Notes under the pieces: model-generated
What the model was told of the DNA's origin: nothing
What the model saw: the letters and a program-made list of their open reading frames with translations, nothing else
Databases searched by the model: none
Translations under genes and position numbers: made by a program
DNA from: Paracoccaceae bacterium
Lineage (GTDB): Bacteria; Pseudomonadota; Alphaproteobacteria; Rhodobacterales; Rhodobacteraceae
Length of the DNA stretch: 64,000 nucleotides
Reading direction: 5' to 3'
Assembly (NCBI GenBank): GCA_027489375.1
Contig: JAIXZW010000019.1
Location: forward strand, 214,326-278,325
Shown here: piece by piece, positions 13,737 to 29,887 of the stretch
Layout: each line of letters begins with the position of its first letter
How positions within the stretch are numbered: the first letter of the stretch is position 1

Positions 13737-15836
13737 ATGATACGTGTCGGTGTCGATGTCGGCGGGACGTTCACGGACCTTGTGCTTGAACAGGTCGAAG
13801 CGGGCGGCAGGCAGCGGGTGTTCACGCACAAGGTGTCGTCCACCATCGCGGACCAGTCGATCGCGGTGGTGCAGGGCGTGGTCGAGTTGTGCGCCATCGC
13901 GGGCGTGCAGCCGTCACAGATCGACGCGCTGTTCCACGGCACCACGGTTGCCACCAACATCGTCATCGAACGCAACGGGGCCGAGGTGGGGATGATCACC
14001 ACGCGCGGTTTCCGTGACATCCTGCACATGGGGCGGCACAAGCGGCCGCATAACTTCAGCCTGCAATTCGATGTGCCGTGGCAAAGCGCGCCCCTGATCA
14101 AGCGGCGCAACCGGATCGTGGTGGACGAACGCGTCCTGCCGCCGAGCGGTCGGGTGGAAACCGCGCTGGCGCTGGATCAGGTCGAGCAGGCGGCGGAACT
14201 GTTCGCCGAGCGCGGGCTGGATGCCGTGATGATCGGGTTCCTGTATTCCTTCCTCAATCCCGATCACGAGATGAAGGCGGCGGAGATCGTGCGGCGGGTG
14301 CTGCCGGATGCATTTGTCTGCACCTCGTCCGAAGTGGTGAATACGATCCGCGAATACGAGCGGTTCTCGACCGCCGCGATGAACGCCTATATCGGGCCGA
14401 AGGTGGCGCGGTATCTGGACAACCTGAAGCGGCGTCTGGCCGAGGCGGGGGTGAGCGCCTATGTCCGCATCATGCAGTCGAACGGTGGCGTGACCACGGT
14501 GGAACAGGCGAGCCGCAACCCCGTGGGGCTGCTGCTGTCCGGTCCTGCGGGCGGGGTGATCGGCGGGCGCTGGACGGGCGAGGCCTGCGACCAGCGCGAG
14601 ATCATCACCATCGACATCGGCGGAACGTCGGCGGACATCAGCGTGATCCGTGGCGGAGAGCTGACGATCAAGAATCCGCGTGACACCGAGGTTGCGCACA
14701 TGCCCGTGCTGGTGCCGATGATCGACATCGACGCCATCGGCGCGGGGGGCGGGTCCATCGCCTATGTCGACAGCGGCGGCGCGTTCCGTGTCGGGCCGAA
14801 ATCGGCGGGGGCCGAACCGGGACCGGCTTGCTACGGGCGGGGCGGCACGCAGCCCACGGTGACGGATGCGCAGGTGGTTCTCGGACGGCTTGACCCCGAG
14901 CATTTCCTTGGCGGCGGATTGCACATCGACGCGGCGCTGTCGGAGCAGGCGATCCGCACCCATCTGGCGGAACCTTTGGGTTTGAGCGTGAAGGATGCCG
15001 CGTTGGGCGTGTTGCGGATCATCAACAACAACATGGCGCTGGCGATTGCTTCGAACTCGGTCGCTCGGGGGATAGATCCGCGCAATTACAGCCTGATGGC
15101 ATTCGGCGGGGCGGGGCCGCTGCATGGTGTGGCGCTGGGCCAGATGATCGCGGCCAAGAACGTGATCGCGCCGCTGCATCCCGGCATCACGGCGGCGATG
15201 GGGCTTTTGGTGACGGAGCCGCGCTACGAATTCACGCAGTCGTCGCTGACGATCCTTCAATCGGGGACGGAGGCGGATTTCGCCACGGTCAATGCGGTGT
15301 TCGACCGTTTGCAGGCGGAAGCGGCGGCGCAACTGGCGGCGGACGGGATCGCCCCCGAGGGGCAGCGGTTCGAGCGGGTCGCGGAATGCCGCTATGTCGG
15401 GCAAGGGTTCGAATTGCGGGTGGCGGTGCCCGAGGGTCCGTTCACCGCCGCGACGGCGCAAGAGATGGCGCGGCGCTTCTTTGCCGTGCATCGCACCGAA
15501 TACGGGCATGCCTTCGAGGATCAGGGCGTGCAGATGGTGACGCTGCGGGTGATCGGTTCGTCCCTGTCGGACACGCTGCGCTTGCCGCTGCTGGACAAGG
15601 GCGGGCGGCGCAATCCTTCGGAGGCGGCGCTTTACGCGCGGCCCACCACCTTTGACGATGGCGAGACGATCCAGACGCCGCGTTTCGACAGGCTGAAACT
15701 GCGGGCGCAGGATATCGTCGTCGGGCCTGCGGTGATCGTGCAGCAGAATTCCACCACCATCGTGCCGCCGGGCTTTGCCGCGACGGTGATGAAACTCGGC
15801 GATCTGGTGATCGCCCGTGCGACCGAGGGGGCCTGA
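13737..15836 (+). CDS. hyuA: Hydantoinase/oxoprolinase family protein, HyuA-type subunit (pair 1)
   Basis: GVDVGGTFTDLVLE; FHGTTVATNIVIERNG; TIDIGGTSADISVI; GAEPGPACYGRGGTQPTVTDAQVVLGRL. Confidence 0.93.
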   Translation: MIRVGVDVGGTFTDLVLEQVEAGGRQRVFTHKVSSTIADQSIAVVQGVVELCAIAGVQPSQIDALFHGTTVATNIVIERNGAEVGMITTRGFRDILHMGRHKRPHNFSLQFDVPWQSAPLIKRRNRIVVDERVLPPSGRVETALALDQVEQAAELFAERGLDAVMIGFLYSFLNPDHEMKAAEIVRRVLPDAFVCTSSEVVNTIREYERFSTAAMNAYIGPKVARYLDNLKRRLAEAGVSAYVRIMQSNGGVTTVEQASRNPVGLLLSGPAGGVIGGRWTGEACDQREIITIDIGGTSADISVIRGGELTIKNPRDTEVAHMPVLVPMIDIDAIGAGGGSIAYVDSGGAFRVGPKSAGAEPGPACYGRGGTQPTVTDAQVVLGRLDPEHFLGGGLHIDAALSEQAIRTHLAEPLGLSVKDAALGVLRIINNNMALAIASNSVARGIDPRNYSLMAFGGAGPLHGVALGQMIAAKNVIAPLHPGITAAMGLLVTEPRYEFTQSSLTILQSGTEADFATVNAVFDRLQAEAAAQLAADGIAPEGQRFERVAECRYVGQGFELRVAVPEGPFTAATAQEMARRFFAVHRTEYGHAFEDQGVQMVTLRVIGSSLSDTLRLPLLDKGGRRNPSEAALYARPTTFDDGETIQTPRFDRLKLRAQDIVVGPAVIVQQNSTTIVPPGFAATVMKLGDLVIARATEGA

Positions 15837-15840
15837 GATC

Positions 15841-17616
15841 ATGTCCAAGACCATAGATCCGATCACGCTTCAGGTTATCGGCGGGGCGCTTCATGCCATC
15901 GCCGAGCAGATGGGGAACGTGCTGTATCGCATGTCCTATTCGTCGATCATCCGCGAAAGCCAGGACCTTGGCGCGGGGTTGTTCGATCTGGATTACAACA
16001 CGCTGTGCGAAAGCGATTCCACGCCGATGCACATCGGGTCGATCCCCGGTTACATGCGCGGGATCGAGAAGAGCATCCCCAAGAGCGACTGGCGCGAGGG
16101 GGATGTTGTGATCCACAACCACCCCTATTACGGTGCCAGCCATTCGCCCGACATCGGGATTGTCATGCCGATCTTCTACCGTGGCGAACTGGTCGGCTTT
16201 TCGGCCAATACGGCGCACCATCTGGATATCGGGGCGGCGACGCCGGGGCTGATCATCGACGTGCCGGATGTCTTTGCCGAAGGGATGCTTCTGAACGGGT
16301 TGAAGCTGTTCGAGGCGGGAAAGCGCAATGACACGCTGTGGCGCTACATCAGCGGCAATACGCGGGTGCCGGGTCTGGTGATGCGCGACCTTGAAGCGCA
16401 GATCGCCTCGGCCGAGTTGGGGGTGAAGCGGTATTGCGAGTTGATGGACACCTATGGCCGCGACACGGTGGAACAGGCCGCCAAGCAGTTGATGGATTAT
16501 TCGGAAACCATGCTGCGGCGCGAGATCGCAAAGATACCCGATGGCGACTATACCGCCGAGGGGTTCATGGATGACGACGGCCGCACGCGCGGGGTGCGCC
16601 TGCCGATCAAGGTGACGGTGCGGGTGCGGGGCGATGATGTGGAGGTCGACCTTACGGGGTCGTCGCCGCAGGTGCCCACGGCGTTCAACGTGCCTTTCGA
16701 GGGGTCGACCAAGGTTGCCTGCTACTTTGCCTTCCGTGCGCTGCTTCTGGATACCTATACGCATCAGGAATACATCCCGCAGAACGAGGGGTCGTTCCGC
16801 CCGGTCAAGGTGACGGCGCCGCTCGGGTCGATCTTCAACCCCATAGCACCTGCCGCCTGCGAGGCGCGGTTCAACCAGATACAGCGCGTGGTCGATCTGA
16901 TCATCAAGGCGCTGGCGCCCGTGTTGCCCGACAAATGCACCGCCGGAAACGCGGCCTGCCTGTCGTTCGCCTCTTACTCGGGGCTTCGGGACAACGGGGA
17001 CTATTGGGTGCTGATCGAGGTGAACGAAGCCGCGATGGGCGCACGTCCGCGTTCGGACGGGCCGGATACGATCGAGGAATTGATGCGGAATACGCGCAAC
17101 AACCCGCTGGAAGACCTTGGCATGCATCTGCCGATGATCTGCGACCGCTACGAAATCCGCGACGATGTGTTCCCCGGTGCGGGGGAATATCGCGGCGGGA
17201 TGGGCGTAGTGAAATCGCAGCGATTCCTGACGCCGGGGTTCATGACGCATGAGAGCGACCGCAACGAGGACACGCCTTGGGGCATTTTCGGCGGGCATGA
17301 GGGGGCGACCGCCATCGTGCGGATCGAAAACCCCGTGAGCGGCGCGCCTGCGCGGGACGTGGACGCGAAATTCTCGGGGATGCGCGCCGAGTTGGGGGAT
17401 GTCGTGACCTATCTGTCGCCCTGCGGCGGCGGCTACGGCCATCCGCTGAACCGCGATCCAGCCAAGGTGCTGGATGATCTTCTGGACGGATACATCACGC
17501 CCGATCACGCGCGGGAGGTTTACGGGGTGGTCTTCCAGCCGGTGAAGAACGGCTATGGCTGGGGTCTGGACGCTGCCGCAACAGATGCGCTGCGGGCGCG
17601 GATGCGGGCTGCGTAA
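15841..17616 (+). CDS. hyuB: Hydantoinase/oxoprolinase family protein, HyuB-type subunit (pair 1)
   Basis: DPITLQVIGGALHAIAEQMG; VIHNHPYYGASHSPDIG; CGGGYGHPLNRDPAKVLDD. Confidence 0.93.
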   Translation: MSKTIDPITLQVIGGALHAIAEQMGNVLYRMSYSSIIRESQDLGAGLFDLDYNTLCESDSTPMHIGSIPGYMRGIEKSIPKSDWREGDVVIHNHPYYGASHSPDIGIVMPIFYRGELVGFSANTAHHLDIGAATPGLIIDVPDVFAEGMLLNGLKLFEAGKRNDTLWRYISGNTRVPGLVMRDLEAQIASAELGVKRYCELMDTYGRDTVEQAAKQLMDYSETMLRREIAKIPDGDYTAEGFMDDDGRTRGVRLPIKVTVRVRGDDVEVDLTGSSPQVPTAFNVPFEGSTKVACYFAFRALLLDTYTHQEYIPQNEGSFRPVKVTAPLGSIFNPIAPAACEARFNQIQRVVDLIIKALAPVLPDKCTAGNAACLSFASYSGLRDNGDYWVLIEVNEAAMGARPRSDGPDTIEELMRNTRNNPLEDLGMHLPMICDRYEIRDDVFPGAGEYRGGMGVVKSQRFLTPGFMTHESDRNEDTPWGIFGGHEGATAIVRIENPVSGAPARDVDAKFSGMRAELGDVVTYLSPCGGGYGHPLNRDPAKVLDDLLDGYITPDHAREVYGVVFQPVKNGYGWGLDAAATDALRARMRAA

Positions 17617-19749: not shown

Positions 19750-20568
19750 TTGGGCGCGTTTGACGACTGGATCGGGCGCGGGTCGCGGCGGGAGGATACA
19801 GTCTCGCCGCGACTGGTCGCGCAATATCGTGCAGCCCTGCCTGACCTTGCCGTTGGCGAAGTGCCGCCGGGCATGTTCTGGACCCTGTCGCCGGATGCCT
19901 ATCCGCCCGCCGATCTGGGGCGGGACGGGCATCCGCGGCTGGGGTTGGAGCTGCCGCCGCTGCCGTTGAAACGGCGGATGTGGGCGGGGGGCGAGGTCGC
20001 TTTTCGCGGCGTGTTCCACGTGGGCGACGCGGTGGTGCGCGACAGCCGGATCGAGCGGATTTCGGAAAAGACGGGGTCCACGGGGCCGCTGATTTTTGTG
20101 TCGGTGCGGCATGATTACAGTGTCGGCGGGAAGGTGATCGTGTCGGAACGGCAGGATCTGGTGTATCGCGAGGACCCTGCCGCCGGTGCGCCTGCGGTGA
20201 TCTATCCCGATGCGCCGGACCTTGGCCCGCCCTTGGCCGAAATGCCGCTGCTGGCCGATCCCGTGCGCCTGTTCCGTTTTTCGGCGCTGACCTTCAACGG
20301 GCATCGCATCCATTACGACGCCGATTATGCGCGGGGTGTCGAGGGTTATGCCGGGCTGGTGGTGCATGGCCCGTTGCAGGCGGTGGCGATGATGGTTCTG
20401 GCCGCGCGGGTGCTGGGGCGGGAGCCTGCGGTGTTCAGCTATCGCGGGCTGTCGCCGCTGACACTGGGGCAGGACGCGGTGGTCGAGGCGCATCGGGACG
20501 GCGACGGGTTGGCCCTGCGCGTGCGGCGTTCGGGCGGTCCGGTCACGATGGCAGGAAGGGCCGTTTAG
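19750..20568 (+). CDS. FAS1-like/MaoC-type dehydratase (mesaconyl-C4-CoA hydratase-like)
   Basis: TTG start; PLPLKRRMWAGGEVAFRGVFHVGD; FRFSALTFNGHRIHYDADYARGVEGYAGLVVHGPLQA. Confidence 0.8.
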   Translation: MGAFDDWIGRGSRREDTVSPRLVAQYRAALPDLAVGEVPPGMFWTLSPDAYPPADLGRDGHPRLGLELPPLPLKRRMWAGGEVAFRGVFHVGDAVVRDSRIERISEKTGSTGPLIFVSVRHDYSVGGKVIVSERQDLVYREDPAAGAPAVIYPDAPDLGPPLAEMPLLADPVRLFRFSALTFNGHRIHYDADYARGVEGYAGLVVHGPLQAVAMMVLAARVLGREPAVFSYRGLSPLTLGQDAVVEAHRDGDGLALRVRRSGGPVTMAGRAV

Positions 20569-21512
20569 GGCGTGACGCTGGCGCGGTAGCTGCTGGGCGT
20601 CTGGCCGAACATCGCCTTGAACAGGCGGGAAAACTGCGCCTGATCGGAAAAGCCGAAGCGGTAGGCGATGTCCGACATCGGGCCGCAGTTCGGCATCTGC
20701 AAAAGGTCGCGCGCCGCGCGCAGGCGCTGTTCGCGCACGAATTGCGAGACGGTGCAATTCACCTCGGCAAAGAGTTCGTGCAGGTAGCGTTTCGAAATGC
20801 CGACACGCTCGGCCACCAGTTCGGGCGAGAGGTCGGGGTTGGACAGTTGCGACAGGATCACCGACTGGGCGCGGCGGCGATGCGCGTCGCGCACCGATGA
20901 GCCTGCACCCTGTTCCACGTCGCTGCTGCGGTCGAGCGAGAGGGCGAGCAGGTCGACGAGGTGGCGGCCAAGCACGTTCGCTGCCAGAGGATCCCCGATC
21001 GCGCCCGTCGCGGTCTGGTGCTGGATCTGCTGCGCCATCGTCGTGAACAGCGAGCCGATCCCTTCGCGTCCGTTGAAGACCAGCGCGCAGTAGCGGTCGG
21101 GGTTGCGCAGCTTTTCCGACAGGATCGGCTTTGCCACCTTGATCACGCAAAGGTCGTTCGCCGCGCCATAGCTGAACCGGTAGGGTTCGTCCCCCCGTTC
21201 GAGGATGAAGCCGCCGGGGTCGCAGCGCACCTCGCGCCCCGACTGGCGGAACTCCACGGGGGACCGGCGCGGGATGGTGATGAGGTATTGCTCCTCGGTC
21301 TCGCGCGAGATGTGGCGGCGGTGGCGTTCGTATTGCACGGCTTCGGTCTGGAGCCGCGACAAGGACAATTCGCCCAGATGGCCGATTTCGAGCCGCCCTT
21401 CGAAGCGGGCGGCGTCGCGGAAGGTGAGGTCGAGCGGGAAATAGGCCTGCGCGATGACAGCGTTCCAGTGATCGGCGCGGGCCGATGCAGGCAGAAGGTC
21501 CGTGCTGTGCAT
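20565..21512 (-). CDS. AraC-family transcriptional regulator
   Basis: C-terminal HTH ISKRYLHELFAEVNCTVSQFVREQRLRAARDLL...MSDIAYRFGFSDQAQFSRLFKAMFGQTPSSYR; alternative GTG start at 21524. Confidence 0.9.
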   Translation of the reverse strand: MHSTDLLPASARADHWNAVIAQAYFPLDLTFRDAARFEGRLEIGHLGELSLSRLQTEAVQYERHRRHISRETEEQYLITIPRRSPVEFRQSGREVRCDPGGFILERGDEPYRFSYGAANDLCVIKVAKPILSEKLRNPDRYCALVFNGREGIGSLFTTMAQQIQHQTATGAIGDPLAANVLGRHLVDLLALSLDRSSDVEQGAGSSVRDAHRRRAQSVILSQLSNPDLSPELVAERVGISKRYLHELFAEVNCTVSQFVREQRLRAARDLLQMPNCGPMSDIAYRFGFSDQAQFSRLFKAMFGQTPSSYRASVTP

Positions 21513-21731
21513 CCGGTTCGTCACGTGGGAATCCCCGACCGCCGCATGTGTGTGGGCCACAATGATCGTCTTTGTCCGCCAGAAGTCAATTCCGTGGCGG
21601 CATGACAGATATGAGAAGCCTTCTTCTTTGGCGAAAGCAGCACTCGGGCGCGCTGGGTGACAAATGCTTGTGCGCGGATCGTCAAGACGGGGGGCGGGGA
21701 AGGGGGCAACCTGACAGGCAATGAATGACAA

Positions 21732-21827
21732 GGCCGGGATTCGGCCGGAGACAGGGAGTGCTGCCAATCCCCCGCCCGAAGGCGGGAGGCGGTGTCCTGT
21801 GGCCGGAGTCCGGCAAGCCAACAGGAG
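21732..21827 (+). promoter_or_regulatory. Structured 5' leader (riboswitch-like candidate) upstream of the pair-2 hyuB
   Basis: GGCCG/CGGCC hairpin; nested stem ACAGG/CCTGT + CTGCC/GGCGG + CCCGCC-CGAA-GGCGGG; GCCGG-AGT-CCGGC hairpin. TCCTGT (21795-21800) can alternatively pair with ACAGGA (21821-21826), overlapping the SD. Confidence 0.45.
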
Positions 21828-21833
21828 ATGCTC

Positions 21834-23588
21834 ATGGCCAGACGGAATGTCGATCCGATCACGCTTTCGGTGGTGCGCGGTGTGCTGGAGACGACCCAGC
21901 GCGAGATGACGCTGGCGCTGGAGCAGACGGCGCGATCCTCGGTCTTCAACCTTGCGCATGACTATTCCACCGCGCTGTTCAACCATGCGCCCGAGATGAT
22001 CCTGCAAGGGCAGGACATTCCGATCCACCTCGGCTCGCTGATCCCCGCGATGAAGTCGGTGGCGAAGTATTTCGAGGGCGACATCCACGACGGCGACCTG
22101 ATGCTGCACAACGATCCGGCCTATGGCGGGTCGCATATCATCGACACCTGCATGTACATGCCCGTGTTCTACGAGGGGGAGCTGGTCTTTTGGACCGTCT
22201 GCAAGGGCCACCTGACCGATATCGGCGGGCCGGTGCCTGCGGGATACAACCCCAACGCCACCGAGATCTATGCCGAGGGGCTGCGCATCCCGCCGATCAA
22301 GCTGTGGGACAAGGGCAAGCCGCGGCATGACGTGATGAACCTGCTTTTGTCGAACATGCGGGCACGGCGGGATCAGGAGGGCGATTTCAACGCGCTGATC
22401 GGCGCTTGTCAGGTGGGCGCGCGCAACCTGAAGCGGCTGATGGACAAATACGGCAAGGCGATGGTTCAGGAGTGCATCGCAGAACTGCTCGACATGGCCG
22501 AGCACCATATGCGCAGCCTGATCGCCGAAGTGCCGGACGGAACCTATACCGGCACGGCCATTCTTGAGGATGCGGGCCACGGTTACGGCGATTTCGAGAT
22601 CACCGCCACCGTGACGATCAAGGGCGACGGGTGCCACATCGCCATCCAGTCACCGCCGCAAATCCCCTATTTCATCAACAGCTACGAAGGGAACAGCCAT
22701 TCGGGCGTCTACCTTGGCCTGATGATGTTCGCCCAGCTTCCGCCGCCCTATAACGAAGGGTTGTATCGCTGCGTCAGCACCGACATGGGCCCCAAGGGCA
22801 CGCTGTGCAACGCCAAGTCGCCCGCGCCGCACATGAACTGCACGACGACGCCGATGGAGACGTTGACGGATGCCGTGCGGCTCGCCTTTGAACAGGCGGC
22901 GCCGCACAAGGTTTCGGCAAGCTGGGGCCATGCCAACGGCTGCAACATCGCGGGCTGGGACAAGCGGCATGACGAGGAATATGTGACGATGGTGCTCGCC
23001 TCGATCATCTCGGGGGCGGGGGCCACGGCGCAGGCGGACGGCTGGCACGCGGTGGGGCCGGAGTGCTGCTTCGGGGCGTTGACCAGCGGCGATATCGAGA
23101 TGCTGGAACACAGCTATCCCATCATCATCCACCGTTATTCGTTGATGGAGGACAGCGGCGGGGCGGGCAAGAACCGCGGCGGATCGGGCACCTGCTGGGA
23201 AGTGGAGCCGCTGGATACGCCGATGACGCTGATCACTTTCGGCGAGGGGCGTCGCATCCCCGCGATGGGGGCGGCGGGGGCGAAATCGGCGATGGTGTCG
23301 AAAAAGGTCGGGCGGCTGGAAGTCACCCGCAACGGATCGACGCAGATCATCACCGACAACGTGATCGAAACCATCCAGCCCGGAGAGCGGGCCGCGAACA
23401 AGAACCCGGGTGGCGGGGGCTATGGCAATGCGTTCGAGCGCGATGTCCAGAAGGTCGTGGAGGATGTGCGCAACGGTCTGGTCAGCCTCGAAGGGGCGCG
23501 GCTCGACTATGGCGTGGTGATCACCGACCGCGAGACGCTGGCGGTCGATGCCGCCGCAACCGCCGCGCTGCGCGCAAGCGCCGCCTGA
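21834..23588 (+). CDS. hyuB: Hydantoinase/oxoprolinase family protein, HyuB-type subunit (pair 2)
   Basis: VDPITLSVVRGVLETTQREMTLALEQTARSS; HNDPAYGGSHIIDT; NPGGGGYGNAFERD; SD AGGAG 6 nt upstream. Confidence 0.92.
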   Translation: MARRNVDPITLSVVRGVLETTQREMTLALEQTARSSVFNLAHDYSTALFNHAPEMILQGQDIPIHLGSLIPAMKSVAKYFEGDIHDGDLMLHNDPAYGGSHIIDTCMYMPVFYEGELVFWTVCKGHLTDIGGPVPAGYNPNATEIYAEGLRIPPIKLWDKGKPRHDVMNLLLSNMRARRDQEGDFNALIGACQVGARNLKRLMDKYGKAMVQECIAELLDMAEHHMRSLIAEVPDGTYTGTAILEDAGHGYGDFEITATVTIKGDGCHIAIQSPPQIPYFINSYEGNSHSGVYLGLMMFAQLPPPYNEGLYRCVSTDMGPKGTLCNAKSPAPHMNCTTTPMETLTDAVRLAFEQAAPHKVSASWGHANGCNIAGWDKRHDEEYVTMVLASIISGAGATAQADGWHAVGPECCFGALTSGDIEMLEHSYPIIIHRYSLMEDSGGAGKNRGGSGTCWEVEPLDTPMTLITFGEGRRIPAMGAAGAKSAMVSKKVGRLEVTRNGSTQIITDNVIETIQPGERAANKNPGGGGYGNAFERDVQKVVEDVRNGLVSLEGARLDYGVVITDRETLAVDAAATAALRASAA

Positions 23589-23613
23589 TCCAGCCCGACA
23601 AAGGACAAAGACC

Positions 23614-25701
23614 ATGCAGAACACCTATCGTCTGGGCATCGACGCCGGCGGCACGTTCACCGACTTCATCCTTGCCGACCGCACGGGAGAGGTGCGCATC
23701 TTCAAGGCGCTCTCGACCCCGCAGGACCCGACCCAAGCCATCCGCAACGGGCTTGCGCTGATCGAGGAGGAGACGGGGATCACCGCGACCGAGATCGTCT
23801 CGAACGCCGATCTGTGCATCAACGGGACGACCGTGGGTCTGAACGCGCTGATCCAGCACAAGGGCGCGCGGACGGGGCTGATCGCCACCGCGGGGCACGA
23901 GGACAGCATCGAAATCCGTCTGGGCCACAAAGAGGACGGCTATCGCTACGACCCCGAATATCCGCCGGCCCGCATGCTGGTGCCGCGCTACCTGCGGCGT
24001 GGCGTGCGCGAGCGCGTGGTTTCGACCGGTGCCGTGCACACGCCGCTGCACGAAGAGGACGTGCGCGACGCCTGCCGCCATTTCCTGCGCGAAGGCGTGG
24101 ATTCGGTCGCCATCAGTTTCGTCTGGTCGGTCCTGCACCCCGAGCACGAAATCCGCGCGGCCGAGATCGTGCGCGAGATGATGCCCGGCGTGCGCCTGAC
24201 GGTCGGCAGTCTGCTTTACCCGCAGGTGCGCGAATACACCCGCACCTCGACCGCGATCGTGAATGCCTATCTTGCGCCGATCCTGTCGCGCTATGTCGAA
24301 GCGGTGGACGGATATTTCCGGCAGTTGGGGGCGAAGAACCCCGTGCGCTACTTCCAGTCCAATGGCGGGCTTGCGCTGGGGTCGGTGGTGTCGGACCAGT
24401 CGGTCTACGCCATCAATTCCGGCCCTGCATCGGCCCCGCAGGCGGCGCTTTACATCGGCGAGCCGTGGGACCTGAAGAACATCATCACCGTCGACATGGG
24501 CGGGACGTCGTTCGACATCACGCTGACGCGGGACGGGCGGGCGAATGTGTCGAAAAACATCGACTTCCTGCGCTACCGCATCGGGATTCCGATGATCCAG
24601 GTGGAAACGCTGGGTGCGGGTGGCGGGTCGATCGGCTGGATCGACAGCATGGGTCTTTTGCAGATGGGTCCGCAGTCGGCGGGGTCGGAGCCGGGACCGG
24701 CCTGCTATGACCAGGGCGGCGACAAGCCGACGACGACGGATGCCAACCTCGTCCTCGGCTATCTGAACCCCGACGGGCTGGTGGGCGGGCGTCTGCCTCT
24801 GGCGGTGGACAAGGCGCGCAAGGCCATCGACGCGAACCTTTCCAAGCCGCTGTCGCTGACGGTGGAGCAGGCGGCTTACGGCATGTTCACCATCGTCAAC
24901 AACAACATGGTCAACGCCATCCGCCGTGTGTCGGTCGAGCGGGGTTACGACCCGCGCGACTTCGTGCTGAATTGCGCGGGCGGGGCGACCGGCGCGCATA
25001 TCACCGCGCTGGCGCGGGAAATGGGCATCCGGCGTGTGCTTGTGTCGAAACTCGCCTCGGGGCTTTGCGCTTACGGCCAGATCATTTCGGACGTGAAGTA
25101 CAATTACATGGCCCCCGCCCCCGTGCGGCTTGAAGGGGCGGCGGCAGCGGCCAAGCTGGACGGGCTGTTCAAGGGGCTGGAAGCGCGGGGGATCGAGGAC
25201 CTGAAGAAGGACGGTTTCACCGAGGACCGCATTTCGATTCGACGCAGCCTCGATATGCGCTACGTGGGACAAGTGCATGAATGCACCGTCGACGTCGATC
25301 CCTTCGCGCTGGACGAAGCAGCGCTGGAGCAACTGAAGGCGGCGTTCCATGCCCGGCACGAAGAGCTTTACACCTATTCCGAGCCGGGAAGCGTGGTGGA
25401 AGTGGTGAACGTGGAAAGCGCGATTTCGGGGCGCGTGGACAGGCCGCGCCGGATGAGCATTCCCAAGGGTGCAGGCGCGGACAAGGCGCTGGCCGGAACG
25501 CGGGCGATGATCTTCGCGGCGGATGGCAAGGCGCAGGAAACGCCGGTCTACACGGGCGAGAAGCTTGGCGCGGGCGACCGGATCATCGGCCCTGCCGTGA
25601 TCGAAGAGGTCACGACCACGCTGGTGGTGGAGCCGGGCTGGAAGGCGGAACTGACGGAGTCGGGTGTCTATCTGCTCGACTATACGGGGGGGACGGCATG
25701 A
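23614..25701 (+). CDS. hyuA: Hydantoinase/oxoprolinase family protein, HyuA-type subunit (pair 2)
   Basis: LGIDAGGTFTDFILAD; NGTTVGLNALIQHKGARTGLI; TVDMGGTSFDITLT; GSEPGPACYDQGGDKPTTTDANLVLGYL. Confidence 0.92.
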   Translation: MQNTYRLGIDAGGTFTDFILADRTGEVRIFKALSTPQDPTQAIRNGLALIEEETGITATEIVSNADLCINGTTVGLNALIQHKGARTGLIATAGHEDSIEIRLGHKEDGYRYDPEYPPARMLVPRYLRRGVRERVVSTGAVHTPLHEEDVRDACRHFLREGVDSVAISFVWSVLHPEHEIRAAEIVREMMPGVRLTVGSLLYPQVREYTRTSTAIVNAYLAPILSRYVEAVDGYFRQLGAKNPVRYFQSNGGLALGSVVSDQSVYAINSGPASAPQAALYIGEPWDLKNIITVDMGGTSFDITLTRDGRANVSKNIDFLRYRIGIPMIQVETLGAGGGSIGWIDSMGLLQMGPQSAGSEPGPACYDQGGDKPTTTDANLVLGYLNPDGLVGGRLPLAVDKARKAIDANLSKPLSLTVEQAAYGMFTIVNNNMVNAIRRVSVERGYDPRDFVLNCAGGATGAHITALAREMGIRRVLVSKLASGLCAYGQIISDVKYNYMAPAPVRLEGAAAAAKLDGLFKGLEARGIEDLKKDGFTEDRISIRRSLDMRYVGQVHECTVDVDPFALDEAALEQLKAAFHARHEELYTYSEPGSVVEVVNVESAISGRVDRPRRMSIPKGAGADKALAGTRAMIFAADGKAQETPVYTGEKLGAGDRIIGPAVIEEVTTTLVVEPGWKAELTESGVYLLDYTGGTA

Positions 25702-26417
25702 CGATCATCAACTGCGACATGGGCGAAGGCTTCGGCCTTTACCGCATCGGCGACGACGAGGGGCTGATGCCGCTGATCGACGTGGCGAACGTGGCCTGCG
25801 GTTTCCATGCGTCGGACTTCAACCACATGCGGCGGACGGTGCAGCTTGCCAAGCAATGCGGGGTGAAGGTGGGGGCGCATCCGTCGCTGCCGGACCTGCA
25901 GGGGTTCGGGCGGCGCGAGATGAAGATCGGGCGCGAGGAACTGGTCAATTGCATGATCTACCAGATCGGCGCGTTGAAGGGGTTTCTGGACGCCGAAGGG
26001 ATGGTGCTGAACCACATCAAGCCGCACGGGTCGCTATACGGCATGGCGGCGCGGATGGAGGATGTGGCCCATGCGGTCGCCGATGTGGCCGACATTTTCC
26101 GCGTGCCGCTTTACGGCATGGCCGGAACGCTGCACGAAAGCGTCTATACCGCGCGGGGGCATGGCTTCGTGTCGGAATTCTACGCCGACCTTGATTACAA
26201 CGATCAGGGCGGGTTGATCATCACCCGCGAACATGCCGCGACCGATCCCGAGGCCGCCGCAACCGCCTGTCTGCGGGCGATGCGCGAGGGCCGCGTGCGG
26301 TCGGTCGGCGGCGTCGACGTGCCCGTGCGCGCCGATGCGATCTGCGTGCATTCCGACACCCCAAACGCCGTGCAGGTGGCCCAAGCCGTGCGCGCTGCGG
26401 TCAAACCGGCTGCCTGA
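25698..26417 (+). CDS. pxpA: LamB/YcsF family, 5-oxoprolinase subunit A-like
   Basis: INCDMGEGFGLYRIGDDEGLMPLIDVANVACGFHASDFNHMRRTVQLAKQCGVKVGAHPSLPDLQGFGRR; overlaps the hyuA stop. Confidence 0.92.
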   Translation: MTIINCDMGEGFGLYRIGDDEGLMPLIDVANVACGFHASDFNHMRRTVQLAKQCGVKVGAHPSLPDLQGFGRREMKIGREELVNCMIYQIGALKGFLDAEGMVLNHIKPHGSLYGMAARMEDVAHAVADVADIFRVPLYGMAGTLHESVYTARGHGFVSEFYADLDYNDQGGLIITREHAATDPEAAATACLRAMREGRVRSVGGVDVPVRADAICVHSDTPNAVQVAQAVRAAVKPAA

Positions 26418-26677: not shown

Positions 26678-28054
26678 ATGGCAATCCGCAAACTTCTCGT
26701 CGCCAATCGGGGCGAGATCGCGGTGCGGATCATCCGCGCCGCCAAGGAATTGGGCATCAGGACGGTGGCTGTTCACAGTCTGGCCGATGCGGACAGTCTG
26801 GCAGTGAAACTGGCGGATGAGGCGGTGCCGATCGGTCCGCCTGCGGCGTCGAAGTCCTATCTGAAGATCGAGGCCATTCTGGAAGCCGCCCGCCTGACCG
26901 GGGCGGATGCGGTGCATCCGGGTTACGGCTTTCTGGCCGAGAACGCCGATTTTGCCGATGCGGTGGAAGCGGCGGGGATGGTCTGGGTCGGGCCGAAGGG
27001 CGACAGCATCCGCGTGATGGGCGACAAGGTCGCCGCCCGCATCGCCGCCGAGTCGGCGGGGGTGCCGGTGGTGCCGGGGTCGGACGGGCGGATCGACGAC
27101 CCCGATCAGGCCCGCGCCGTGGCGCTGGCCATCGGATTCCCCGTTATGATCAAGGCCGCCGCAGGGGGCGGGGGGCGCGGTATCCGCATCGCCCATGACA
27201 TGGAAGAATTCGAGCGCCTGATGCCGCAGGCCAGTGCCGAGGCCAAGGCGGCCTTTGGCGACGGTGGCCTTTATATGGAAAAGGTCATCGAACGCGCCCG
27301 CCATATCGAGGTGCAGGTTCTGGGCGACGGCACCCGCGCCGTGCATTTCTTCGAACGCGAATGTTCGCTGCAACGCCGCCGCCAGAAGGTCTGGGAGGAA
27401 GCGCCCTCGGCCACCCTGCCGCAGGCGATGCGGGAACGGCTTTGCGCATCGGCCGTCGCCCTTGCGGAAGCGGTGGGCTATCGCGGGGCGGGGACGCTGG
27501 AATACCTTTATGACGATGCGTCGGGGCAGTTCTATTTCATCGAGATGAACACGCGCATACAGGTCGAGCATCCCGTGACCGAGATGGTGACGGCCGTCGA
27601 TCTTGTGCGCGAGATGATCCGCATCGCGGGCGGAGAGCCGCTGCGCTACCGGCAAGAGGATATCCGCCTGACGGGCCATGCCATCGAGGTCCGCATCTGT
27701 GCCGAGGACCCCGCCAAGGGTTTCGCGCCCGCGCCGGGCACGATTTCGGCTTTGCGCGTGCCGGGGGGGGCGGGGGTACGGTTCGATACGATGCTGTATC
27801 AGGGCTATACCGTGCCGCCGTTCTACGACTCGCTCTTGGGAAAGCTGATCGTCTGGGACGAGGACCGCGCGTCGGCCATCGCCCGCATGCGCCGCGCTTT
27901 GGACGAACTGGCGGTCGAGGGGCTGCCGACGACACGGCCCCTGCATATGCTTTTGGCCCGCGACCCCGAGGTCGCCGAGGCCGCTTTCCACACGCGCTGG
28001 CTGGAACCCTGGCTAGAGCGGAACGCACACCGGCTTGAGGAGACCCCGGAATGA
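26678..28054 (+). CDS. Biotin carboxylase (AccC-like)
   Basis: LLVANRGEIAVRIIRAAKELG; KAAAGGGGRGIR; ECSLQRRRQKVWEEAP; FIEMNTRIQVEHPVTEMVTAVDLV. Confidence 0.95.
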   Translation: MAIRKLLVANRGEIAVRIIRAAKELGIRTVAVHSLADADSLAVKLADEAVPIGPPAASKSYLKIEAILEAARLTGADAVHPGYGFLAENADFADAVEAAGMVWVGPKGDSIRVMGDKVAARIAAESAGVPVVPGSDGRIDDPDQARAVALAIGFPVMIKAAAGGGGRGIRIAHDMEEFERLMPQASAEAKAAFGDGGLYMEKVIERARHIEVQVLGDGTRAVHFFERECSLQRRRQKVWEEAPSATLPQAMRERLCASAVALAEAVGYRGAGTLEYLYDDASGQFYFIEMNTRIQVEHPVTEMVTAVDLVREMIRIAGGEPLRYRQEDIRLTGHAIEVRICAEDPAKGFAPAPGTISALRVPGGAGVRFDTMLYQGYTVPPFYDSLLGKLIVWDEDRASAIARMRRALDELAVEGLPTTRPLHMLLARDPEVAEAAFHTRWLEPWLERNAHRLEETPE

Positions 28055-28926
28055 AGACCAGATACTCCTTTGGCGGCGACGAGCACATCTTTGTCGAATG
28101 CGATGAGGAAATGTCGCTTGAAGCCTTTTTCAAGGGCATGTCGATCACCAGCGCCCTGCGCGAGGCCAAGATCAAGGGCGTGACCGAGATTTGCCCCGCC
28201 AACGCGTCGTTTCAGGTGCGGTTCGATCCTGACGTGATCTCGCCCGACGATATGATGGCCGAGTTGAAAAAGCTGGAAGCGGTTGCCCAATCGGCGGCGC
28301 CGACCTTGCAGACGCGGATCATCGAAGTGCCGGTCCTGTATAACGATCCGTGGACGCACGAGACGCTGATGCGGTTCCGCGAAAGGCATCAGGACCCGAC
28401 CTCGACCGACATCGAATACACGGCGCGGATCAACAACCTCGACGGTGTGGACGGGTTCGTTAAGGCCCATTCCGGCGCGCCGTGGTTCGTGTCGATGGTG
28501 GGCTTCGTGGCGGGTTTGCCGTTCCTTTACCAGATGGTGGACCGCAAGCGGCAGATCCAGTCGCCGAAATACCTGCGCCCGCGCACCGATACGCCGCGGC
28601 TGACCGTGGGGCATGGCGGCTGCTTTGCCTGCATCTATTCCGTGCGCGGGGCGGGGGGCTACCAGATGTTCGGCATCACGCCGATGCCGATCTATGATCC
28701 GAACCAGACGGTGCCTTACCTGCGCGACTTCATGTGTCTGTTCAGCCCCGGCGACATCGTGAAGTGGAAGCCCATCGACCGCGCCGAATACGACCATACG
28801 GTCGCCGAAGTGGACGCGGGCCGCTGGATGCCGCGCATCGCGCCGGTCACGTTCTCGCTCACCGAGTTCCAGAAAGACATCGACGGCACCAATGCCCGCA
28901 TCATGGAGGCGCTCAATGGCCATTAA
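28051..28926 (+). CDS. pxpB: 5-oxoprolinase subunit B-like (KipI/AHS1, carboxyltransferase subdomain)
   Basis: MKTRYSFGGDEHIFVECDEEMSLEAF; GFVAGLPFLYQM, CFACIYSVRGAGGYQMFGITPMPIYDP. Confidence 0.88.
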   Translation: MKTRYSFGGDEHIFVECDEEMSLEAFFKGMSITSALREAKIKGVTEICPANASFQVRFDPDVISPDDMMAELKKLEAVAQSAAPTLQTRIIEVPVLYNDPWTHETLMRFRERHQDPTSTDIEYTARINNLDGVDGFVKAHSGAPWFVSMVGFVAGLPFLYQMVDRKRQIQSPKYLRPRTDTPRLTVGHGGCFACIYSVRGAGGYQMFGITPMPIYDPNQTVPYLRDFMCLFSPGDIVKWKPIDRAEYDHTVAEVDAGRWMPRIAPVTFSLTEFQKDIDGTNARIMEALNGH

Positions 28927-29887
28927 CGTCATCAAGCCGGGCCTTTCCACCACGGTTCAGGACCTTGGCCGCCCCGGATATTACCACATCGGGATTCCCA
29001 CCTCGGGCGGGATGGATACGCTGTCGCTGGCCGCAGCCAACCTGCTGGTCGGGAACGCGGCGGGGGATGCGGTGCTGGAAGCCGTGTTCATGGGGCCGGA
29101 GCTTGAATTCACCGCCGATGCAACCGTTGCCGTGACGGGGGCCGACATGCCGCCGAAGGTGGATGGCGAAGAGCGTGCAGGCTGGACTTCGTTCAGGGTG
29201 AAGAAGGGGCAGGTCCTGAGCTTCGGCTTCCTGAAGGCAGGGGCGCGGGCCTATATCGCCGTGTCGGGCGGGATCGACGTGCCTGTCGTTCTCGGTTCGC
29301 GCTCGACCTATACGCTCGGCGTGCTGGGCGGGTTCAAGGGACGCAAGCTGGAAGCGGGCGACCAGTTGCCCGTGGGGGCGGGGAAAGCCGTGGCCGAGGG
29401 GCGGACCCTGCCCGAAAACCTGCGCCGCAAGCCGGGAATGCCTGCCGAATTGCGGATGCTGCCGGGGCTTTACTGGCACCGCATCACCGAAGCGGCGGGG
29501 CGTAACTTCTTCGAGGACACGTGGAAGGTCGCACCCGAGGCAGACCGCATCGGCTATCGTTTCAAGGCGGGGCGACCTTTGGAATTCGTGGACCGTGAAC
29601 AGCCCTTTGGCGCGGGGTCCGATCCGTCGAACATCGTGGACGCCTGTTACCCCTATGGCTCGGTGCAGGTGCCCGGGGGGACGGAGCCTATCGTGCTGCA
29701 CCGCGATGCGGTGTCGGGCGGCGGGTATTTCATGGTCGGAACGGTCGTTTCGGCGGACATGGACCTGATCGGTCAATTGCAGCCGCATACGCCGACCCGT
29801 TTCGTGAAAGTGACGATGCAAGAGGCGCTGCAGGCGCGGCACGACCGCAAGGCCGTGCTTGACGCGATCACCGCCGCGCTGGTCTGA
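28916..29887 (+). CDS. pxpC: 5-oxoprolinase subunit C-like (KipA/AHS2, biotin-dependent carboxyltransferase)
   Basis: INVIKPGLSTTVQDLGRPGYYHIGIPTSGGMDTLSLAAANLLVGN; AYIAVSGGIDVPVVLGSRSTYTLGVLGGFKGRKLEAGDQL. Confidence 0.9.
   Translation: MAINVIKPGLSTTVQDLGRPGYYHIGIPTSGGMDTLSLAAANLLVGNAAGDAVLEAVFMGPELEFTADATVAVTGADMPPKVDGEERAGWTSFRVKKGQVLSFGFLKAGARAYIAVSGGIDVPVVLGSRSTYTLGVLGGFKGRKLEAGDQLPVGAGKAVAEGRTLPENLRRKPGMPAELRMLPGLYWHRITEAAGRNFFEDTWKVAPEADRIGYRFKAGRPLEFVDREQPFGAGSDPSNIVDACYPYGSVQVPGGTEPIVLHRDAVSGGGYFMVGTVVSADMDLIGQLQPHTPTRFVKVTMQEALQARHDRKAVLDAITAALV

Follow-up and report, generated by a model that had tools for sequence, protein, structure and literature searches.

Upstream of capB in the window (the whole 64,000-nucleotide stretch of DNA that was analyzed) lies a leader whose parts can pair in mutually exclusive ways. 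It is probably a bistable 5' leader RNA of about 115 nucleotides (nt), specific to capBA, that sets how open the Shine-Dalgarno (SD) sequence of capB is. In its anatomy, the leader is well supported as bistable, translational, and gene specific; that it switches in cells we infer. The case for two states rests mainly on two helices, P1 and the long stem b:c: they share the b1 bases, which makes them mutually exclusive, yet both are conserved. In dozens of Rhodobacterales species, the lactamase operon is preceded by this structured-RNA candidate, which is absent from Rfam. Searches of the literature turned up no previous description of it.

The capB locus and its leader

The features of the locus are given in Table 1. 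The original prediction called the first two genes hyuB and hyuA; as NCBIfam equivalogs of the caprolactamase subunits they are best named capB and capA. The NF050156 match begins at residue 27 of capA, and the true start of this gene is probably later than position 23548. A single PxpBC gene had also been proposed, but PxpB-like and PxpC-like carboxyltransferases are encoded by separate, overlapping open reading frames (ORFs).

Table 1. Features of the capB locus, numbered from the first nucleotide of the window
Feature	Position	Strand	Details	Basis
Divergent AraC-family regulator	20565-21530	-	AraC_binding_2 and HTH_18, FeaR-like	
Two direct repeats	21650-21688	+	GCGC-N7-CAA, 22 bp apart; overlap the -35 region	
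Inferred -10 element	21707-21712	+	CAACCT	
P1 hairpin	21732-21746	+	strand a, GGCCG, 21732-21736; loop, GGATT; strand b1, CGGCC, 21742-21746	sequence, covariation
Strand b	21740-21756	+	3' half of P1 plus SD-like ACAGGG, 21751-21756; partner is a or c	constrained folds, swap test
Inner hairpin P3	21761-21792	+	CTGCC, 21761-21765, with GGCGG, 21788-21792; CCCGCC, 21771-21776, with GGCGGG, 21781-21786; loop, CGAA, 21777-21780	
Strand c	21795-21814	+	TCCTGTGGCCGGAGTCCGGC; pairs with strand b; TCCTGT is the anti-SD	
SD region	21821-21827	+	ACAGGAG; AGGAG at 21823-21827	read from sequence
capB/hyuB, caprolactamase beta-subunit equivalog	21834-23588	+	NF050157, 1109 bits (cutoff, 1000)	
capA/hyuA, caprolactamase alpha-subunit equivalog	23548-25701	+	NF050156, 1224 bits (cutoff, 1000)	
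LamB/YcsF (PxpA) domain	inside ORF 25281-26417			
Biotin carboxylase	26678-28054	+		
PxpB-like CT_C_D ORF	28051-28926	+		
PxpC-like CT_A_B ORF	28892-29887	+		

By its NCBIfam equivalogs, CapBA belongs to the same enzyme family as the caprolactamase CapAB of Pseudomonas jessenii (PMC6061476 and PMC8453981). In PMC6061476, the regulators named near capAB are of the CsiR and IclR types, and an AraC type is not mentioned. Upstream of the capB locus in the window, at 13737-17616, another hydantoinase A/B pair, a paralog of capAB, is accompanied by a LysR gene. At the end of the operon, the product of the ORF at 31136-32161 matches the GntR-type winged helix twice and then an FCD-like domain; such a double-headed GntR regulator is an unusual architecture.

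The direct repeats upstream of capB consist of GCGC at 21650-21653 with CAA at 21661-21663 and of GCGC at 21672-21675 with CAA at 21683-21685. A column tally of 59 orthologous promoters gave tGCgC.ga..g.CAAA...t.gtGC.C.c.gcg.CAAGAC, and the divergent AraC-type regulator probably binds at these repeats. Some related promoters (L126 and L132) have extra repeat units. In 57 of the 59 promoters, [CT]AnnCT occurred 24 to 26 nt from the start of the CAAGAC box, and the -10-like element was 37 to 48 nt (mostly 43 to 46 nt) before the ACAGGG motif in leaders of types A, B, and D (defined below). Because the spacing from promoter to motif is fixed, the capB mRNA would start near 21719, which would place the whole structure within the transcript and should put P1 about 13 nt into it. 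The original prediction had named a start downstream of about 21800 as fatal to it; the likely start is upstream of the entire structure. No site resembling an intrinsic terminator was found on the forward strand between 21400 and 21900.

A direct reading of the window found each of the pairing segments first described exactly in place. ACAGG (21751-21755) is complementary to CCTGT (21796-21800), and TCCTGT (21795-21800) is complementary to ACAGGA (21821-21826) in the SD region. A GCCGG-AGT-CCGGC hairpin occupies 21802-21814, and GGCCGGAG is directly repeated at 21743-21750 and 21801-21808. The AGGAG sequence serves the ATG at 21834; a further in-frame ATG is at 21828. The predicted minimum free energy (MFE) fold differs from the arrangement first described: the 3' half of P1 (about 21740-21746) is opened there and paired with 21801-21807, which prolongs the ACAGG/CCTGT stem into a longer hairpin. 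Folding energies were computed with ViennaRNA at 37°C. Relative to dinucleotide shuffles, the fold of a 91-nt core that stops 14 nt short of the start codon had a z of -3.5, and that of the 151-nt leader had a z of -1.9. These values are modest for GC-rich DNA, so comparative tests were needed. It is these tests that carry the case, and, judged by comparison of sequences, the structure of the window leader is not a chance effect.

Orthologous leaders and covariation

We compared 94 distinct leaders of orthologous capB/hyuB genes, mostly from Rhodobacterales; the orthologs came from the genus, a public genome collection, and a sample of the family. (In L008, from genome G002, the capB frame breaks soon after DPITLSVVRG and the rest is conserved, reflecting either a frameshift or a sequencing error.) By sequence, the leaders fell into subtypes A (GGCCGGGATTCGGCC, including the window), B (GAGGCYGGAnARCGGC), C (Paracoccus), D (GGCGCAACAGACGCC), and E (GACGTGCAGGAGGAGCAC), and the remaining group has short or different leaders without the element. 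Subtypes A to D share a layout of a 4- to 5-bp hairpin, an (A/T)CAGGGA-type motif, a variable inner hairpin, strand c, and the SD; in most leaders the hairpin precedes the motif at 17 to 23 nt. The inner hairpin, P3, keeps its place among the relatives and varies in sequence. The sequence of P1 is strongly conserved within a subtype (CAAGRCCGGGATTCGG in A and GTGCAGGAGGAGC in E). No aptamer core was found across lineages; subtypes A to E share only the hairpin and an SD-like purine motif, and their P1 loops differ.

Only some close relatives have the exact match of TCCTGT to the ACAGGA of the SD; others have the same logic in different sequences. In place of the ACAGGG, TCCTGT, and ACAGGAG of the window, one leader (L065) has ACACGGGG, CCCGTGT, and ACACGGAG, and another (L154) has TCAGGG, CCCTGA, and TCAGGG at the corresponding places. 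Because the leaders differ in sequence and have the same competing pairings, they amount to a set of natural compensatory mutants with which the tuning of a strand-displacement switch could be studied. Type E reaches the layout of A to D by other sequence, and its homology is one of position and logic, not of sequence. The loop of its P1 hairpin is AGGAGGA, and its SD is covered by a hairpin, CCUUUGC/GCAAAGG, in which a U-A to C-G exchange occurs. Cells of the SD hairpin were 90% paired, as were those of an alternative pairing, of CCUUUGC with GUGCAGGAGG in P1 (a:c), but conservation of the alignment weakens the shuffle controls for type E.

The original prediction held covariation in homologous leaders to be essential, and we found it for both helices. 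Among 29 distinct P1 15-mers, each chosen as the best-pairing stretch near the motif (a choice that favors pairing but not covariation), 89% of cells were paired versus 66% when shuffled. The covariation score was 0.514 versus 0.157 for shuffled sequences (equaled in 0 of 500 shuffles), and registers slid along the leader reached at most 0.268. P1 strands also paired better with their own partners than with swapped ones (z = -5.1; P < 2e-5).

For the long stem, each leader's b strand was paired with its own strand c or with the strand c of another species. In 29 leaders less than 80% identical, own pairs averaged -19.98 kcal/mol and swapped pairs -17.43 kcal/mol (z = -4.9; P < 2e-5), and 0 of 50,000 permutations were as good as the own pairs; the tests were devised for this analysis, their windows were picked after inspection of the sequences, and permutations remove relatedness only in part. 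At lower identity the P values were 0.001 (<75%), 0.01 (<70%), and 0.04 (<65%, four leaders). Swapping whole halves of the duplex was noisy; restricted to the motif-anchored strand, the test gave a clear signal. There was no signal when the b:c geometry was moved 60, 80, or 100 nt upstream (z = +2.1, +0.4, and +2.2), or when the swap test was applied to other leader segments and to unstructured capB leaders.

The element appears to be confined to capB. A type E covariance model run on 397 sampled genomes of the family gave three strong matches (76, 70, and 44 bits), all before capB; among the best 10 candidates per genome, under strict filters, the next match had 29 bits and was taken as noise. 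The type A motif gave three other matches in the 397 genomes, and by eye none was a capB leader or had the P1-ACAGGG layout. A repeat or mobile element was considered and rejected: the leader is single copy in its genome, and in 19 genomes of the genus, matches with E ≤ 0.001 were leaders of the same gene only. Strong type E matches before capB only, together with the single copy, mark it as a cis element that belongs to a single operon, as opposed to a dispersed repeat.

Pairing and accessibility of the SD region

Complementarity between strand c and the SD was greater for own than for swapped pairs in 38 leaders (P = 0.006; control leaders, P = 0.51), but type A leaders taken by themselves gave no significant difference (P = 0.26). 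Thus, c:SD pairing appears to be kept more weakly than b:c. The similarity of the SD-like motif to the leader's own SD did not exceed that in swaps (P = 0.12).

We computed the accessibility of the SD with P1 forced or blocked. The mean was 0.39 with P1 forced versus 0.49 with P1 blocked, and the value was lower in 23 of 28 leaders (P = 0.002). Forcing P1 changed accessibility by -0.101 in the leaders themselves versus -0.033 in chimeras with swapped 3' parts (P = 0.005). In the window leader, the SD was unpaired at 0.69 when folding was free, 0.38 with P1 forced, and 0.68 with P1 blocked. The computed effect was modest on average; it was clear in the window and several A and B leaders, and about zero in subtype D and several other A and B leaders. 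Mutually exclusive structures, one of which covers the SD, are therefore predicted as pairing potential. The original prediction had CCTGT choosing between ACAGG and the SD; these pairings are indeed exclusive, and one of them involves the SD, but they are not the whole of it: the key competition is between P1 and the extended stem, which need the same strand.

A bistable leader could work as follows. Soon after transcription starts, strand a would pair with b1 to form P1. Once made, strand c could drive a off and take up the whole of b (b1 and the SD-like ACAGGG) in a long hairpin that stops just short of the SD; with c occupied, the SD would be fairly open (ON). If P1 persisted, c could instead pair with the SD region (OFF). 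The switch presumably runs in this direction, and its balance may be set by a trans-acting factor such as a protein or a small RNA, by a metabolite, by temperature, or by folding kinetics alone. Substrate induction probably also acts at the promoter, via the divergent AraC protein. The capB leader would add a posttranscriptional layer to lactam catabolism.

Alternative explanations and known systems

The strongest rival, possible although unlikely, is a static hairpin: a 5' hairpin selected for mRNA stability, as an RNase site, or for keeping the SD clear, which would stabilize or insulate the message without switching. It fits the facts that most leaders have b:c as their MFE fold, that this hairpin does not reach the SD, that the sequence of P3 is free to vary, and that the effect on the SD is modest. 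However, it leaves unexplained both the equally strong covariation of the competing P1 (z = -5.1) and the SD complementarity kept by strand c (P = 0.006).

A true riboswitch, in which a small molecule (a lactam, an amino acid product, or another compound) binds P1/ACAGGG and shifts the balance between a:b1 and b:c, seems to us distinctly doubtful. Like translational riboswitches of the anti-SD/anti-anti-SD kind, the leader lies in the 5' untranslated region of a metabolic operon and has an upstream strand, an anti-SD, and an SD whose pairings are mutually exclusive. One element stands before one catabolic operon, and P1 is conserved within subtypes. Unlike translational riboswitches, the leader has no recognized aptamer core, is absent from Rfam 15, and has stems that drift in sequence; the subtypes have no common sequence core beyond the SD-like purine motif. 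The bases conserved within a subtype are those that take part in two alternative pairings, so their conservation is explained without a ligand. At the gathering score, Rfam 15 gave no match, to a riboswitch or otherwise, in the window or in 18 related loci, and with an E-value threshold the best match to the leader was weak (17.7 bits; cutoff, 49). Many riboswitch classes stand before several genes, whereas this element precedes capB only, and the AraC regulator already at the promoter could account for induction. Thus, of the riboswitch-like leader originally suggested, the structure, the exclusive pairings, and the compensatory changes stand; a ligand-binding aptamer and a cyclic amide as its ligand are not supported. 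Slightly harder still to credit is a new ligand-binding class in Rhodobacterales, one that would gate caprolactamase translation in response to a lactam or its product, with divergent subtypes built on one three-way scheme (P1, long stem, and SD). If a lactam or its product were the trigger, the leader would be a biosensor for the breakdown of the nylon-6 monomer.

We think it improbable that a trans-acting small RNA (sRNA) with an anti-SD CCUCCU loop acts on the leader and has the SD-like loop or strand as its landing site. Alphaproteobacterial AbcR/NfeR-like sRNAs carry such loops. The AGGAGGA in the P1 loop of type E and ACAGGGAGA in the joint of types A to D are both complementary to them, and, as in targets of AbcR-, NfeR-, and CcsR-type sRNAs, an accessible sequence like AGGAGGA or AGGGAGA lies in the leader of a catabolic operon. 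The capB motif differs from those targets in having an intramolecular partner; it is equally well explained as the partner of strand c, and it varies between subtypes. The sequence CCUCCUCCC occurs in PMC3927594 and PMC10746234, papers on such sRNAs.

That P1 acts in the DNA, as a palindromic operator, and has no role as RNA is very improbable. A short hairpin always corresponds to a dyad in the DNA, and in types A to D, sense and antisense folding were about equal (P = 0.75), and deviations in P1 were 10 GU and 10 AC. In type E, GU pairs far exceeded AC (53 versus 7 over three helices, two of which share bases). Wobble pairs thus favor the RNA strand in type E; for A to D, they do not prove it. 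Against an operator, P1 would lie about 13 nt downstream of the likely start of transcription, its stem changes by compensatory pairs between species, unlike an operator, and the long, bulged b:c stem covaries too.

We give equally little credence to ACAGGGA as the SD of a leader ORF, with the structures acting in translational coupling or attenuation. In three of four Paracoccus leaders (L106, L107, and L108), an ORF begins 8 nt past CAGGGA, runs for about 22 codons, and has a stop that overlaps the capB start (ATGA), which suggests translational coupling in that lineage. However, of 47 leaders just 13 have an ATG or GTG within 2 to 13 nt of the motif, the window leader is not among them, and frames and lengths are not conserved; a leader peptide was therefore rejected as a general feature.

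An RNA thermometer also fits poorly: like ROSE and fourU elements, the short capB leader can pair its SD region with an upstream strand, but there was no Rfam thermometer match in the window or the 18 loci, the helices are very GC-rich and not AU-rich, a competing upstream hairpin covaries, and the gene is catabolic, not heat shock.

Seven orthologs (L092, L095, L096, L101, L105, L109, and L111) have the same AraC-type boxes and short leaders without the bistable element. The element is therefore dispensable in some orthologs, and these leaders are natural deletion variants with which the longer ones can be compared.
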